64,000 bases of DNA from Halosimplex rubrum (GCF_013415885.1 NZ_CP058910.1:4216001-4280000), one strand, 5' to 3'. Numbered from the stretch's first letter, positions 10,003 through 18,561 are shown. The notes: generated by a model not told the origin, from the letters alone. Numbers and translations are program-made.

Positions 10003-12783
10003 ATGTTGGTACTGGCAGCGATTCCCCCCGTTGTGGGTGGTACGACCGGATCTGCGACGATCGGGAATGCAGGTAACGAGGCGGCGCTCGCCGGCGCGGG
10101 CAACGTTCCGTCGGGGCCGCCGGCCGCGCTGAAAGTCGAGGCCGCGGCGGCGATCGACGACGCGAGCGTCGAGAAAGAGCGGTTCGCGTCGGCGCGCGAT
10201 CGCGCGTTCGAGCGGATCAACGGAACACTCGACGACTATCGCGATCCCGTGCGGCTAGCGTCGATGGAGTCGTTCACTGACGACGCGGTCGGCGTGCAGG
10301 CGCTGGCGAAACTCGCCCGCTCGGAGGCGAACGGCACCTCGCTACGGGCGAGTCGCTACGTCGCCTTCGCGGACAACCGGACGACCTACCGGACGATCCT
10401 CGACGCGCGACGGGCACTGAATCAGACCGAGGGCGAACTGGACAATCAGGGGCTGCGCCGGAGCGCCGAGGCACACTTCGACAACGCCCAACGGCAGTTC
10501 GACCGCGCACAGCGCCGACTCGACCGGGCGAACAGGTCGGACGGGCGGCAAGCGATCAGTCAGTACGCCCAAGCGATCCGGGCGCTGCGGACGAGCTGGC
10601 AGCAAGCACAGCAATCGCTCCATATGATCGATCGGGAGGTTGACCCCAGCGTGGCGATCGTCAATCGCGCAGACCCGATCCGAACCGGCTCTGTGGGAGT
10701 GAACCGAAGCGTGAGAGTGCGGTTCTCGGACCCGCGACCGTGGACGCTCGGCAATCTCACCGTGTACGTCGACGGCGAACAGCGCCGTTCACAGCCGGTC
10801 GATCAACTTCGAACTGGACCGATGGAGAATCGAACACTTGGCGTGCCCGTGCGGCTCTCCGATCGCGTGGCGAACGTCACTGTCGTTGTCAGATACACAG
10901 ACGTGAAGCTTGGTCGGAACGGAGACGGCCAGACCACGCAGGCGAGCGCGACGCTGTTGCTCGACGGCGACGGGCTCGACGAGTCGACCGAGGGCACACT
11001 CGGGACTGACCCGCTCGATCCGGATAGCGACTCAGCCAAAACCGACCGCGACGAGAGCGACGACGGTGTGATCGACGGCCACGCGGACTTCGACCGCGAC
11101 GGCCTCGGCACGCTCGCGGAGTTCGACCTGAGGACCGACCCGCTCGTTGCGGACACTGACGGGGACGAATTGTCGGACGGCAACGAGACATCGGTGACAC
11201 GAACTGATCCGCTAGCGGCGGATACCGACGACGACGGCACGGGTGACGCGCAAGAAGATCCTGACGGCGATACCCTGTCAAACGCCGAAGAACTGGCTGT
11301 GGGGACTGACCCGCTGTATGCGGACATCGATGGTGACGGGCTCGACGACGCCGCGGAACTCGCGAACGGAACGGACCCGCTGAACCCGGACACCGACGAC
11401 GACTCACTGGCCGACGGTGACGAGCTACAGGCGCCGTTCGAGACGGACCCGCTCGATCCGGACACGGACGACGACGGCGTCTTCGACGGCAACGAGACGT
11501 TCACGACGACGACCGGCAACGAGACGCTCGGTGCGACCGTCGACATCACCGGCGAGGGCAACGTCGCCGGAACGACGACCGTCGAGGAACCGACGCACGT
11601 CCGCTACCAGGACGAGTACACGCCCAACGCGTCGGTCGCACCGTTCGTCGACTTCGAGTCGCAGGCGAACTTCTCGCGAGCGACCCTCACCATCGCCTAC
11701 AACGAATCGCGCGTCGCCAGTAGCGAGGGGAACCTCTCGATCTATCGGTTCAACGAGAGCGCCCAGCGCTACGAACACGTCGAATCGACGGTCGACCCCG
11801 ATTCGAACACGGTCACCGCGACGACCGAGCACTTCTCGACGTACACGGTCTTCGACGACCAGCAGTGGCTGCACTACCTCCAGCACCGCAACGACATCCT
11901 CTCGCTGCGGCCCGACGGCACGAACACGGAACGGATCGCCAACTGGACGTTCGAGTCGATGCCCTCGTCGATCGGCGCGAGCAACTGGACCTGCAACGTC
12001 GAGGACCGCGGCGGCGGGTTCAAGGACCAGCCCGCCGACGGCGGCTGTGAGATCGAACCCGACAAGGACGCCATCCGGGTGTGGGAGAAGACTAATCGCC
12101 AGCGGTTGTTCAACCGCACGACCACCTTGCCCGAGGACGGTCCGCTGTTCGTGAAGGTCAACGTCACCGCCCACATCCAGAGCAGCTGGTCGCACGCGGC
12201 GGCGGTGCTGTCGATCGACGCTGGCGACGGCGAGACCGACATCTACCGGCTGGAGAGCGATTACGATAGTGGCTCGAAAACCAAGACGGTCGTCCGACGC
12301 GTGAATATCTCCGAACACGCCGGCGAGACGGTCACCGTGTCGCTGCGCGCAGATGCTCGCCACACGGGCGGCGACAACTCCTGGCTGCGCGCCCACTACA
12401 TCGACTTCGAGCAAGCTACCGAAGGTGTCGCCACACGCGATTCAGACGGCGACGGCATCCCCGACTTCCGCGAAGTGAGGGGCGTCCCGCTCGCGAACGG
12501 ACCCACTGTCACGCTCGACCCGTTCGACGCGGACACCGACGGCGACGGCCTCGAGGACGGCGAGGAAATCAACCTCGACGCCCGGGTCACCCAGGAACCG
12601 CCCAACAGTCAGGCCGTCGTCAGTGGAGGGATAATCGAGAGGAAACACTCTGGATGGCGGTCTTTACCGACAGCCCAGAACACGACCCGTCGAAGGTGCC
12701 GTCTCGGTTTGGCCTTTCTCAGGCCGAACGAATTCGGGCTGCCACAGCAAAAACAGCGGTGCATGAACTTGGCCATCATCTGA
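10003..12783 (+). CDS. Thrombospondin type 3 repeat surface protein, disrupted at both ends
   Basis: About 926 residues in frame. Residues ~1-230 are a helical region with a weak signal sequence at the first ATG. From ~325 to 500 there are repeated DxDxDG-type calcium loops ('DPLVADTDGDELSDGNE', 'DPLNPDTDDDSLADGDE' and others), i.e. thrombospondin type 3 repeats. Beta-rich domains follow (~515-800), then a final calcium loop ('DPFDADTDGDGLEDGEE'). The 5' end looks shifted by one base relative to ATG 9944, and after ~residue 875 the frame turns basic while another frame encodes a metalloprotease. Probably a once-secreted, calcium-stabilised surface protease/adhesin now a pseudogene, or expressed as fragments. 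Confidence 0.75.
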   Translation: MLVLAAIPPVVGGTTGSATIGNAGNEAALAGAGNVPSGPPAALKVEAAAAIDDASVEKERFASARDRAFERINGTLDDYRDPVRLASMESFTDDAVGVQALAKLARSEANGTSLRASRYVAFADNRTTYRTILDARRALNQTEGELDNQGLRRSAEAHFDNAQRQFDRAQRRLDRANRSDGRQAISQYAQAIRALRTSWQQAQQSLHMIDREVDPSVAIVNRADPIRTGSVGVNRSVRVRFSDPRPWTLGNLTVYVDGEQRRSQPVDQLRTGPMENRTLGVPVRLSDRVANVTVVVRYTDVKLGRNGDGQTTQASATLLLDGDGLDESTEGTLGTDPLDPDSDSAKTDRDESDDGVIDGHADFDRDGLGTLAEFDLRTDPLVADTDGDELSDGNETSVTRTDPLAADTDDDGTGDAQEDPDGDTLSNAEELAVGTDPLYADIDGDGLDDAAELANGTDPLNPDTDDDSLADGDELQAPFETDPLDPDTDDDGVFDGNETFTTTTGNETLGATVDITGEGNVAGTTTVEEPTHVRYQDEYTPNASVAPFVDFESQANFSRATLTIAYNESRVASSEGNLSIYRFNESAQRYEHVESTVDPDSNTVTATTEHFSTYTVFDDQQWLHYLQHRNDILSLRPDGTNTERIANWTFESMPSSIGASNWTCNVEDRGGGFKDQPADGGCEIEPDKDAIRVWEKTNRQRLFNRTTTLPEDGPLFVKVNVTAHIQSSWSHAAAVLSIDAGDGETDIYRLESDYDSGSKTKTVVRRVNISEHAGETVTVSLRADARHTGGDNSWLRAHYIDFEQATEGVATRDSDGDGIPDFREVRGVPLANGPTVTLDPFDADTDGDGLEDGEEINLDARVTQEPPNSQAVVSGGIIERKHSGWRSLPTAQNTTRRRCRLGLAFLRPNEFGLPQQKQRCMNLAII

Positions 12784-14157: not shown

Positions 14158-14418
14158 GTGGCCAATCGTCGTACGCCGCCGGGGTGGATGCAGTTGCCGA
14201 TAGACGATCGTATCCTCGAATGTCTCTCGTCGTCGGGGTTGATTCTCTCGCCGTCGGTCATCGCAATCAACATCGACAAGTCTCGGGACGAGGTGAATCG
14301 TCGACTGACGACGCTGACCGACAAAGGATACGTCGAGCGCGTTAAACGGGGGTACTACCGGATCACTGAGTTGGGCGAGCGGTACTTGCAGGGCGACCTG
14401 GACGACGAATCCGACTAG
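14158..14418 (+). CDS. PhiH1 repressor-like winged-helix regulator
   Basis: 86 residues, GTG start. 'DDRILECLSSSGLILSPSVI' and 'DEVNRRLTTLTDKGYVERVK' followed by 'GYYRITELGERYL' are the helix-turn-helix and wing of the PhiH1-repressor family common on haloarchaeal viruses and islands. AT-rich DNA upstream (14060-14120) could hold its promoter and operator. Likely controls island genes. Confidence 0.85.
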   Translation: MANRRTPPGWMQLPIDDRILECLSSSGLILSPSVIAINIDKSRDEVNRRLTTLTDKGYVERVKRGYYRITELGERYLQGDLDDESD

Positions 14419-14470: not shown

Positions 14471-16624
14471 TTATCCCGAATACGCTCCGAGGGTCGCGTC
14501 AGTGGTCTCGGCGAGCCACTGGCGAATCTCTTCTCGGTCCCATCCCAACGGTGCAAGGACGCTCTCAACGGCGCGGACGAGTTGGGTCTCGTAGTACGCC
14601 GTGTCGTAGCTGTCGATTCCCTCGTGGGCGAGTGAAACCCGATCGCGCGAAGACTTGTCGTCGTCGACGACGATATACGCGATCTCCTGGCCGGGATGGA
14701 TGTCTAGACCCTGGTCGCGAGCGCGTTCGAGCGCCGCGACGGTGTGGGTGTACTGCGTGTAGGCCTCAACCGGTTTCGAGATACGGATCCGCTCGGCCAG
14801 CCGATCGGGGTCGACCCGGCCGGCCCGCAGCCGTCCGATCGCCGCGTGGAGCCGTTCCAACACTGGTTCGGATGCTCGCGTTTCATCGAGCCGGTCGAGA
14901 CAGTCGCGCTGGACGCGCTCGACGAACGACGGTGTCGACCGTTGGCGTGCCTCGATGCCGCGGATCTTGAACTCTCCAGAGTCGGCCAGTCGGCCGAAGT
15001 ACTTCGTCAGCGCGCCGGCCGGGTCGTCGCGTCGCGGGACGAACGCGACCCAGTCGTGGGCGGCCTCGTATTCGAGACGGATCCCCACACTGTCGGTAAT
15101 CTCAGCGGCAAGGGTATCGAGATCCGTTCGCTCCCCGTCCGGGACATCCGGTGCCGGCCGCACCCAGATCGAATCGACGATGCCGTGGACGACCTCCCAC
15201 CCACCGGCTTCCAGCCGTTCTTTCGCCGTCAGCAGGATCTCCCGGGCGAAGGCGTTGATCGCCTCGTGGCACTCGATCCGCCCGAACTTGGCGTTCGCGA
15301 AGCCCTGATAGCCGAAGCAGGCGACGAGGATCCACTTCAAGGCCTCCGAGCGGCCTTCGAGTGCGGCCAGGCGGGCCTCGTCGGGGTCCTCGGCTGCACG
15401 CTCCTCGCGGATGGCCGCCTTGATCGTATCGCGGTCGTCGATGATCGGTTCGAGGACGTCGACGAGATATCCACGCTCGTCGCAGATCGCGTAGTCGAGC
15501 CCGGGCACGTCGGCGCGGTCGCGATGGCAGTCACAGCGGATCACGTCGGGGGAGACGTTTCGGGTGGAGATGATGTTCGGATAGAGGCTCGAAAAGTCGA
15601 GTTCGTGGACATTCTCGTGGACGCCCGCGTCGGGGGCGAAGATGAACCCGCCGCGGTCGGCGTCGTGCAGCGTGGCCATCGGCTTGAACAGCTCGTGGCG
15701 CCAGGAGTTCCAGGGGACGAGGACGCCACGGGCGGCCGCCTCGCGGACCTGGATCGCCGTGAGGACGGTGCCGATCGACGCCCAGGCGAGTTCCTGGACG
15801 GGCTTGTGCGAGCGCCCGACCAAGTCAAGGACGCCGTCGAGGTTGGTCTCGTCGTACAGGAACGTCGCCGACTCGTCGACGATTGCACGGCCGGGCACGT
15901 TGTACCGCGCCGGTGAGTGACCCACGCGGCCGTAACTCGTGTAGGTCGACTGGCCGGCCAGTTGCTGGTAGTCGACGCCGGGCCACCGACTTAGCGTGAA
16001 CTCGTCGCGGCCGGCTTGGTCAGCCATGCTATAGAGGGTGGGGACGATCTCGGCCGTCGAGCAGACGAGCACATCGGGATTTTGGTCTTCGACGGCGATC
16101 CCGACGGCGTCGAGGATCGTCGCCGGTGAGCCGGTGACGGTGTCGCCGTCGACGGTCAGCGTCTCGTAGGCCCCATCGGTCGTTTCGGGAACCGGGACCG
16201 ACAGCGAGAGGGTGGTCAGATCGGTCTCGGGTGTCGGGTCGACGCCGCGTTCGAGACAGTAGCGAAACCCGCGGGTGAAATCCACGTTGTAGCAGGCCAG
16301 CTCGCCCACGGGGTAGGCGTCGAGCTGGCGAGCCTGCCGGGCCAGCGACGTGACGCGGTCGACGTGGCAGGCGTCGACGGCCAGCAGGCGTTCGGCCTCG
16401 CGGCGAAAGCCCGGCCGTCGCTCGACGACCTCGACACCGACGACGTCCGGGTGGCGCTCGTAAACCCGGCGCAGGCGGGTGAGGTCGATCTCCGCCTCGG
16501 CATCCCGGGGACCGACGAAGAATCTGGGCGTGTAGTCGTCGACGACGGTGGGATCGGCGCCGTCGTCAGTCGCCGTCCATTCGAGCACCCGGCCGTCGTC
16601 GCAAAAGTCGAAAGCGAACGGCAT
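14471..16624 (-). CDS. polB2: PolB2-type family B DNA polymerase with altered catalytic motifs
   Basis: 717 residues. Motif A 'DFSSLYPNI' (343-351) is intact. The motif B region is 'LKWILVACFGYQGFANAKFG' (~429-448), not the usual KxxxNxxYG. Motif C reads HGIVDS (480-485) where active enzymes have YGDTDS, so the first metal-binding Asp is Ile. The exonuclease I motif reads LSLSVP (139-144) where LSFDIE is expected, losing both acidic residues. This fits the archaeal PolB2 group, described as inactivated or very weak and linked to DNA damage responses. It is last in a three-gene operon, 5 bp after the small DUF8156-like gene. Confidence 0.9.
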   Translation of the reverse strand: MPFAFDFCDDGRVLEWTATDDGADPTVVDDYTPRFFVGPRDAEAEIDLTRLRRVYERHPDVVGVEVVERRPGFRREAERLLAVDACHVDRVTSLARQARQLDAYPVGELACYNVDFTRGFRYCLERGVDPTPETDLTTLSLSVPVPETTDGAYETLTVDGDTVTGSPATILDAVGIAVEDQNPDVLVCSTAEIVPTLYSMADQAGRDEFTLSRWPGVDYQQLAGQSTYTSYGRVGHSPARYNVPGRAIVDESATFLYDETNLDGVLDLVGRSHKPVQELAWASIGTVLTAIQVREAAARGVLVPWNSWRHELFKPMATLHDADRGGFIFAPDAGVHENVHELDFSSLYPNIISTRNVSPDVIRCDCHRDRADVPGLDYAICDERGYLVDVLEPIIDDRDTIKAAIREERAAEDPDEARLAALEGRSEALKWILVACFGYQGFANAKFGRIECHEAINAFAREILLTAKERLEAGGWEVVHGIVDSIWVRPAPDVPDGERTDLDTLAAEITDSVGIRLEYEAAHDWVAFVPRRDDPAGALTKYFGRLADSGEFKIRGIEARQRSTPSFVERVQRDCLDRLDETRASEPVLERLHAAIGRLRAGRVDPDRLAERIRISKPVEAYTQYTHTVAALERARDQGLDIHPGQEIAYIVVDDDKSSRDRVSLAHEGIDSYDTAYYETQLVRAVESVLAPLGWDREEIRQWLAETTDATLGAYSG

Positions 16625-16629
16625 TGCGG

Positions 16630-16929
16630 TCAGCAGTCGCTCCTACCGGTGGGATCGTCGGGGACCGACTCGACAGTCGCTTCGAGCGTGTCGACTCGCG
16701 ACTGGAGTCGCTCGATCGCGCGTTGCTGTTCGAGCGCGATACTCACCAGCACCGGATCCATGGGGTTCTGGTGGTTCAGCAGGCCGCTCGCGTCGGCGTG
16801 CTCGCGAGCGTGGGTGAACAGCCGGTCGAAGTGTGGCTGGTCGCGCCGGCGCAGCGCACGCCGATAGTCGTCCCACCGACGTTCGAGCGCCGTGAGCGTG
16901 TCGCGAAAGGTGGGGTTGGTACGGCCCAT
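16630..16929 (-). CDS. Small conserved PolB2-operon protein (DUF8156-like)
   Basis: 99 residues from ATG 16929 (MGRTNPTFRDTLTALERRWD). Predicted all-helical; residues ~5-55 are an Arg-rich helical pair with 'DYRRALRRRDQPHFDRLF', and ~65-90 a leucine-zipper-like coiled coil ('VSIALEQQRAIERLQSRVDT'). It sits 2 bp after the upstream gene and 5 bp before the polymerase, so it is very probably co-expressed and may bridge or load the polymerase. Function not established. Confidence 0.82.
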   Translation of the reverse strand: MGRTNPTFRDTLTALERRWDDYRRALRRRDQPHFDRLFTHAREHADASGLLNHQNPMDPVLVSIALEQQRAIERLQSRVDTLEATVESVPDDPTGRSDC

Positions 16930-16931
16930 CG

Positions 16932-17756
16932 TCAGGGCCCCCGGCCGGGCTGGCCGGCCCACGTTGCCAGGAGCGGGGTATCGGGCTGGCGAGCGGGTGC
17001 AGTCGTGACCTGTCCCTCGGAGTCGTCGGTATCCATCGAGGGACTCGACGGGGTGGCGGGCTGGTGCCCGGTCCCCTCGGCGCGGGCGGCCAGCAGGTCC
17101 GCCCAGTAGGCGAGTGTCGTCTGGTAGGCGTCGCCACCGGCGACGGGGTACCACTGGGGTTCGAACTCCTCGCCGGTAATCCGCGGGCCCATCCGCGTCG
17201 ACTCGCAGGTGTAGTGGTGAGTTGCGGCCGCTTCGATGGGGTCGGTGAGGGCGTCCCCTTCGGTTCGGGTGCAGAGGACGGGCACGTCGTAGGCGTCGGC
17301 GTATTGGCGGAGACGGGCGAGGCTACGTGCCAGGAGTCGGCGCACCTGTGCGTCACCGAGTGTGTCGTCGGCCCGATAGAGCGCGTCGACGGCGGGCGCG
17401 ACGATCAGTGCCGGCGTCGGCTGGGTGTCCGTGTCGTCGGTCGCGTCGCGCTGGCCGAACGCGTCGGTCGTCGTCGCCGCTTTGACGTGGGCGTTGACGG
17501 CTCCGGACAAATCCGCGAGCGCGCTGAAATGCTGGTAGGCGGTGAATCCGCGGGCGACGTGGATACGGTCGAGCAGGCGCTGGCTGGGCGCGATCTGGGT
17601 CAGCGTCGCCGTCGTCGCGTAGCCTTGGGCGTCGATCCAGAAGGCGGGACCACTGGCGTCGAGCAGGTGGTCACAGACTACGGCGTGGACGACCGGCACC
17701 GACCGGTCGGTATCGGTGTCGAGCAGCGTCAGGCCGGGGTCGAGCGACGGGAGCAA
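16932..17756 (-). CDS. RecA/RadA-like protein of the PolB2 operon, no Walker A seen
   Basis: About 274 residues from TTG 17756, the only start available: the frame stays open upstream to a TAA (~17808) with no ATG or GTG. 'PVVHAVVCDHLLDASGPAFW', 'LLDRIHVARGFTAYQHFSAL' and 'PALIVAPAVDALYR' follow the Rad55/RadA core strand order, and the late 'RLRQYADAYDVPVLCTRTEG' matches the strand after Walker B, but no GxxxxGKT is present. Probably a P-loop-less RecA-fold partner of PolB2. First gene of the operon. The open upstream frame raises the chance of 5' truncation. Confidence 0.72.
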   Translation of the reverse strand: MLPSLDPGLTLLDTDTDRSVPVVHAVVCDHLLDASGPAFWIDAQGYATTATLTQIAPSQRLLDRIHVARGFTAYQHFSALADLSGAVNAHVKAATTTDAFGQRDATDDTDTQPTPALIVAPAVDALYRADDTLGDAQVRRLLARSLARLRQYADAYDVPVLCTRTEGDALTDPIEAAATHHYTCESTRMGPRITGEEFEPQWYPVAGGDAYQTTLAYWADLLAARAEGTGHQPATPSSPSMDTDDSEGQVTTAPARQPDTPLLATWAGQPGRGP

Positions 17757-17817: not shown

Positions 17818-18561
17818 TTATAACTCCTCCCACATCTGTCGAATTCTTTGCCCAGGATTTTTAATCAAGTTTCTAACTCTTCTTTTTACGAATGTTCTTG
17901 GCTCTCGTCGAAACTTCACAAAAACAGGTACGATATCATATTTCAATGTTTGCAAGGACGTGATAAGGAACCATCCCAATATGCATAAAACGAAGGCGGA
18001 TCCGAGCAGTGCCTCCAGATAATTAAAAATTTCCATGTTAATATCCGCAACATAAGCATCGTAATATGCAAAGAGTGGAAAAGGAAGAAAGAAAGCTACT
18101 GCTAGTTTGCCCAACCTGCTTGCACGTTTGTCCCATTGGTTCTCTTCAAACTGCTCCTCTACTTCGGCTTTTGTCTGGCGGCGAATTTCCGCTGCCGTCT
18201 GAAGATCAATTTGCTCGAGGGTCGGAGCTGTCGTTGTGTCGGTGTAGTCTTCAGTCTGACCACGGATCTCTTTGATCAATTCATCTCGATCAATACCATT
18301 GAGTTCGCAGAGTCGTTCGACGACAATGGTTGTAGACGCGAGTGTCGTCCGGAGTTCGTCATCCGACAGGTCGTCGAACGCCATCTCAAACTGCCGGTCT
18401 GGATAGTCAGCGAGAAGCTGAAAGTCTAGCAGACCAGATCGAAACCGTTCTCGAATTCGTTGTTGATCTCGCCGTTTTTTCTCCTGATCAAGACCATCAA
18501 AATCATCCTTTATTCGGGTTCGCTGTGTTTTCGTGAGGAGTGATGCCGACTGGCCCGCCAT
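17818..18561 (-). CDS. Haloarchaeal membrane protein of unknown function
   Basis: 247 residues from ATG 18561. The N-terminal ~100 residues are charged and helical ('LLTKTQRTRIKDDFDGLDQE', 'LLADYPDRQFEMAFDDLSDD'). Two hydrophobic segments (~150-170 and ~185-210) follow, then a basic tail. The N-terminal pattern recurs in many haloarchaeal accessory regions, often beside transporters, but has no assigned role. It is divergent from the ABC exporter genes, and a degenerate copy of its 5' end lies at 22199-22344. AT-rich. Confidence 0.75.
   Translation of the reverse strand: MAGQSASLLTKTQRTRIKDDFDGLDQEKKRRDQQRIRERFRSGLLDFQLLADYPDRQFEMAFDDLSDDELRTTLASTTIVVERLCELNGIDRDELIKEIRGQTEDYTDTTTAPTLEQIDLQTAAEIRRQTKAEVEEQFEENQWDKRASRLGKLAVAFFLPFPLFAYYDAYVADINMEIFNYLEALLGSAFVLCILGWFLITSLQTLKYDIVPVFVKFRREPRTFVKRRVRNLIKNPGQRIRQMWEEL

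Follow-up and report, generated by a model that had tools for sequence, protein, structure and literature searches.

The three minus-strand genes analysed here very probably form a haloarchaeal PolB2 mutasome operon (iRadA-PPB2-PolB2), in which PolB2 would be a working polymerase that lacks proofreading and serves lesion bypass. The locus adds a member to the PolB2-PPB2-iRadA operon type, described from 2008 to 2025; a striking operon is thereby placed within a described lesion-bypass system, and its doubly broken look proves to be a conserved, selected signature of the family. The present analysis yielded the sequence anatomy, the PolB fold of the model, the conservation and the purifying selection.

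Operon anatomy and polymerase motifs

The initial annotation had described a three-gene PolB2 operon, which is borne out by the coordinates, the shared minus strand and the gaps of 2 nt and 5 nt. The genes lie head to tail in the order iRadA, PPB2, PolB2, within the 64,000-nt stretch of Halosimplex rubrum DNA that was analysed as a whole (the window):

14471..16624, minus strand: polB2, encoding a 717-aa PolB2-group DNA polymerase (family B) with motif A D343, motif C H480-G-I482-V-D484-S, the D323-R324 loop and an inactive exonuclease domain
15170..15187, minus strand: codons of PolB2 motif C (HGIVDS, residues 480-485), with Ile in place of the first Asp
16630..16929, minus strand: PPB2 (arCOG07300-like), small helical protein of 99 aa with an N-terminal MGRT arm, its role as given in PMC11791011
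16932..17756, minus strand: iRadA, 274 aa, TTG start, related to RadA/Rad51 but devoid of Walker A, the catalytic Glu and the Walker B Asp
16959..16976, minus strand: PLLATW in the iRadA C-terminal tail (residues 261-266), a possible PCNA-binding motif, weak in the window copy
14158..14418, plus strand: convergent winged-helix gene just 3' of the operon, found in H. carlsbadense too and outside the conserved operon
17818..18561, minus strand: upstream gene for an unrelated 247-aa protein without a family match, not found at the other loci and outside the operon

PolB2 matches Pfam DNA_pol_B (E=3e-21) and scores 1250 bits against NCBIfam NF004418 (a 'type B DNA-directed DNA polymerase' subfamily; cut-off 692), and since the operon also recurs across haloarchaea, the family assignment is not due to chance. 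Its AlphaFold model, built with 25 sequences (pLDDT 83), resembles hyperthermophile family-B polymerases along the full length, the closest solved structure being 9N DNA polymerase (E=3.8e-39, aligned across nearly the whole length). The model is least confident at residues 146-149, 224-237, 308-324 and 438-447 and at the C-terminus; 308-324, a low-confidence loop in the monomer model, is the stretch assigned as the binding site for iRadA and PPB2 in PMC11791011. A PADLOC homing-endonuclease match on PolB2 was considered as a link to defence and set aside, as it covers the polymerase region and probably reflects a PolB model that bears an intein, matched through its polymerase part.

The motif readings of the initial annotation hold. 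Motif A is kept (ELDFSSLYPN, with DFSSLYPN at residues 343-350 and D343 as the motif A Asp), motif C reads HGIVDS at 480-485 for YGDTDS, with I482 replacing the first Asp and D484 retained, and the Exo motif I site reads LSLSVP at 139-144, with no acids and no D-x-E. The D-x-E at Exo I, the exonuclease motif that was compared, is missing from the relatives as well, and the replicative PolB3 hallmarks, YGDTDS and an intact Exo I, are absent from the window PolB2. HGI[VI]DS and the motif A Asp are each found in 79/79 full-length haloarchaeal PolB2 sequences, and across 25 haloarchaeal sequences with 49-87% identity to the window PolB2 there is no variation at H480, G481, I482, D484, S485, D343, D323 or R324; a pattern search finds D323-R324 in 81/84. 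The methanogen PolB2 relatives follow the same pattern, with the first Asp and the Tyr of motif C replaced and the second Asp present. Judged from these sequences, the apparent defects are the rule in the family, a conserved and selected PolB2 signature.

The PolB2 group was named 'inactivated' in 2008 (PMC2527604), and a reading along those lines would make PolB2 an inactive polymerase kept as a scaffold, with PolB2, iRadA and PPB2 binding stalled forks or primer ends and recruiting or blocking other enzymes. The replacement of the first motif C Asp, the motif C Tyr and Exo motif I in all relatives would suit such a role, as would the lost ATPase site of iRadA. Both metal-binding Asp residues are invariant, however, and Sulfolobus islandicus Dpo2, with Ile at the position of the first Asp (401-IID-403; PMC11791011), incorporates nucleotides robustly, is as active as the replicase, lacks exonuclease activity and extends mismatched ends (PMC8764526). 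Dpo2-type activity is explained without the first motif C Asp because the metal is bound by the second; the first points away from the active centre in several family-B structures (PMC8764526). We consider an inactive scaffold unlikely, and the earlier conclusion that the polymerase is catalytically defective, hence structural, is not upheld; only the RadA ATPase and the exonuclease look lost.

An alternative acidic triad was sought by alignment, and no replacement acid proved universal. E341 (codon 15602-15604), two residues before the motif A Asp, is among the acids invariant in the 25 sequences, but Gln stands there in many methanogen relatives. Haloarchaea have Glu at this position, and all other non-DxD PolB2 sequences whose motif A could be read have either Glu or Gln, a Leptospira phage relative included; in 14/14 aligned DxD family-B polymerases the residue is Ile, Cys, Ala, Ser or Val, never Glu or Gln. 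Being two residues apart, E341 and D343 face the same side of the strand. As Gln is common at 341, the residue is not a general replacement metal ligand, and a hydrogen bond to His480 or the primer end would be its likelier use. The Glu/Gln is one clade signature, not countable as independent covariation, and thus a lead, not proof. We raise only tentatively that, together with the His replacing the motif C Tyr, it may compensate for the missing Asp; an exonuclease acting in trans is a second such lead. No mention of a Glu/Gln two residues before the motif A Asp was found in the PolB2 literature surveyed.

Genome setting, recurrence and selection

H. carlsbadense, of the same genus, carries the same operon at ~85-87% protein identity. 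The DNA common to the window and both same-genus relatives stops ~50 nt upstream of iRadA, so the surroundings of the operon differ among same-genus genomes. The gene at window positions 10003-12783 encodes a protein of 926 aa in which D-x-D-x-D-G repeats of a calcium-binding-like type (thrombospondin type 3-like) are numerous; its segment 10808-12614 is also found, at 87% DNA identity, near the H. carlsbadense polB2 operon. PolB2 is present in three copies in the genome, alongside one canonical PolB3 and only two copies of iRadA. The third PolB2 copy (G000:C1:2884174-2886318, L112) lacks iRadA and PPB2 in the 7.7 kb upstream of it and would have to borrow partners from elsewhere or work alone. 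The open frame of PolB3, a separate gene at about 4.021-4.023 Mb of C1, spans ~1,375 codons, which leaves room for an intein.

As the earlier proposal of a preserved operon implied, the arrangement is conserved in other haloarchaea: PPB2 and PolB2 are separated by at most 14 nt at 36/84 haloarchaeal loci, the window counted. The remaining loci mostly have other genes between PPB2 and PolB2, TnpB-like transposon genes included, or no PPB2 found in the stretch examined. TnpB-like genes stand just 5' of PolB2 or separate it from PPB2 at L037, L041, L061, L042 and L102.

Many copies of the system are plasmid-borne (150 plasmid records have a match) and Orc1/Cdc6 genes occur next door (also PMC1906834 and PMC4104785), which would fit a plasmid-borne replication or maintenance module, with PolB2 and its partners serving to start or restart the replication of haloarchaeal megaplasmids in place of lesion bypass. 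The window copy, however, is in the 4.48-Mb main contig, with no orc gene evident among the flanking frames inspected; in Halobacterium neither polB2, which is readily deleted, nor the adjacent orc4 is essential (PMC1906834); and Sulfolobus Orc1-2 is itself a damage-response regulator (PMC9738581), so that linkage to Orc fits a damage response too. A plasmid replication or maintenance module is, in our judgement, very unlikely.

The dN/dS values, computed pairwise for the window and H. carlsbadense, are 0.135 for PolB2, 0.156 for iRadA and 0.22 for PPB2, and within PolB2 0.142 for residues 1-250, which include the dead exonuclease region, and 0.123 for palm and fingers; all three operon proteins are under purifying selection. 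In a further genome of the genus (G003; L114:6065-7720) polB2 is cut at ~residue 500 and continues into an unrelated cysteine-rich frame, with iRadA and PPB2 intact. Such truncated relatives, and the stops in several others, could point to a decaying remnant of horizontal acquisition, conserved merely through recent spread, but this is hardly credible for a window copy that is intact, with dN/dS of 0.12-0.14 in every PolB2 part, partners under purifying selection and motifs invariant across 49-87% identity. The recurring operon, the invariant motifs and the dN/dS values agree with the initial annotation's view that the locus is conserved and not decaying: the PolB2 system is selected where intact, yet dispensable.

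Partner proteins and the predicted assembly

The small helical protein noted earlier is the 99-aa PPB2, which begins MGRTNPTFRD; [MV]GRT stands at the start of 63/64 PPB2 sequences and is the arm of PPB2 (arCOG07300) in PMC11791011.

The other partner had been read as a RecA-fold protein lacking Walker A, and the losses prove to extend further. Compared with the RadA of the same genome, iRadA has no counterpart of the P-loop GEFGAGKS, its catalytic Glu is replaced (IDSED in RadA, IDAQG in iRadA) and so is the Walker B Asp (LLCVDS and LIVAPAVD, respectively); iRadA is thus left without any of the ATPase residues compared. Similarity of iRadA to the Pfam Rad51 family is weak (16.1 bits, the cut-off being 22), and Pfam Rad51 is matched weakly by 9/21 iRadA members. 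A search of the PDB with the iRadA profile matched solely RadA, Rad51 and RadB chains (best E=0.0013). An hhalign comparison of the iRadA alignment with single RadA and RadB sequences gave no significant match, as expected at an effective alignment depth of 1.9, and AlphaFold with 21 relatives reached a pLDDT of 34. The link between iRadA and RadA is based on the Pfam, NCBIfam and PDB profile matches together with the aligned motifs; PMC4104785 and PMC11791011 place the same inactivated RadA in this operon.

In 60/62 iRadA sequences (58 by regular expression and 2 by eye) the C-terminus consists of a variable linker and then PLLxxW, mostly as ADPLLDAWT; the window tail, DTPLLATWAG, is degenerate and weaker than this usual form. 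The FEN1 of the same genome, a PCNA client, ends in QTGLDRWT and shares the LDxWT look of the usual iRadA tail. This resemblance supports a putative clamp motif in iRadA, the window copy being the weaker candidate. A clamp-binding motif has been proposed for iRadA (PMC11791011).

In the proposed mechanism, polymerase activity, damage induction and complex architecture are carried over from published work on relatives; we infer that the mutasome properties would all hold in this organism. PolB2 would extend distorted or mismatched primer ends past a lesion, with D343 and D484 as the presumed metal-binding acids and Ile tolerated at 482. iRadA, with a RadA fold and a lost ATPase site, would dock on PolB2 as one Rad51 subunit docks on the next, via the loop before D323-R324, and a PPB2 trimer would reach with its MGRT arm into the cleft between PolB2 and iRadA near the DNA, for a predicted PolB2:iRadA:PPB2 stoichiometry of 1:1:3. 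A link from this assembly to PCNA may run through the iRadA C-terminal tail.

The damage-tolerance complex suggested by the initial annotation is the best-supported role, in view of the Sulfolobus work (PMC8764526, PMC7390963) and the models of 40 PolB2-type complexes (PMC11791011). Dpo2 is the damage-inducible polymerase of S. islandicus (PMC7390963), inducibility being known for Sulfolobales. Our literature search found no biochemical or expression data on any haloarchaeal PolB2; the main text of a Halobacterium UV-B study mentions no polymerase, and Halobacterium UV papers yielded no polB2 induction data. Haloarchaea are genetically tractable and can carry several PolB2 copies, and the locus points to D343, D484, E341, H480, D323-R324 and the PPB2 MGRT as residues of interest.

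The exonuclease variant and known systems

At 19/84 loci the gene after PPB2 encodes a DEDDh 3'-5' exonuclease of 207-226 aa in place of PolB2, which lies 0.9-4.8 kb further on (iRadA-PPB2-exonuclease sets upstream of PolB2, e.g. L089:4406-5053, L050:4061-4708 and L077:2246-2902, with 16 further loci). The protein has all three exonuclease motifs (DIE, NG...FD, HNxAD; Pfam RNase_H_2), and its gene overlaps PPB2 by 4 nt in 18/19 loci. It is missing from the window's genome and from all 36 tight PPB2-PolB2 operons; a more distant form (~50% identity) occurs at L142, L143 and L144, where iRadA and PPB2 were not detectable nearby. A DEDDh exonuclease beside PPB2 could supply nuclease action in trans to the exonuclease-dead PolB2. 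No mention of this variant was found in the parts of PMC4104785 and PMC11791011 that were available.

Two further associations concern the same neighbourhoods. A fused metallophosphoesterase and RNase_H_2 protein (481 aa) is encoded upstream of iRadA on the same strand at L045:3027-4469 and seven other loci, is at least 95% identical between loci and never occurs in loci with the DEDDh gene. In 21 haloarchaeal loci (e.g. L108:2016-2729) the strand opposite to PolB2 carries, ~4 kb upstream, a gene for SRAP, an abasic-site shield; SRAP association has been reported for the PolB2 family (PMC11791011). Leptospira LE1-type phages encode a PolB2-like polymerase (L145:3404-5857, KF114879.1) with 31-33% identity to the window protein, HAITDS and, ahead of the motif A Asp, a Gln.

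The haloarchaeal PolB3 of the same genome is, like PolB2, a family-B DNA polymerase, and differs in its YGDTDS and its C-terminal QTGLESFM. S. islandicus Dpo2 resembles the window PolB2 in belonging to the PolB2 group, in its non-DxD motif C with Ile, in its lack of exonuclease motifs and in its operon with two partners; the window protein, at 717 aa, is larger than and distant from Sulfolobus Dpo2, which is described as the smallest PolB2 and is the one for which activity is known. The E. coli Pol V mutasome (UmuC, UmuD'2, RecA) offers an analogy, drawn in PMC11791011, in that a polymerase sits on a Rad51/RecA-family protein with a small oligomeric partner whose arm is near the DNA; Pol V, in contrast, is a Y-family polymerase with an active RecA, and the two systems are not homologous. 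The closest counterpart is the PolB2 mutasome of PolB2, PPB2 (arCOG07300) and iRadA, as set out in PMC11791011 and PMC4104785, which shares with the window the gene order iRadA-PPB2-PolB2 on one strand with gaps close to zero, Ile in place of the first motif C Asp, the D(K/R) loop, the MGRT arm, the inactivated RadA and the dead exonuclease. Nothing essential differs: the window copy is chromosomal, has no Orc1/Cdc6 evident nearby, is one of three PolB2 copies and carries a weak clamp-motif candidate.
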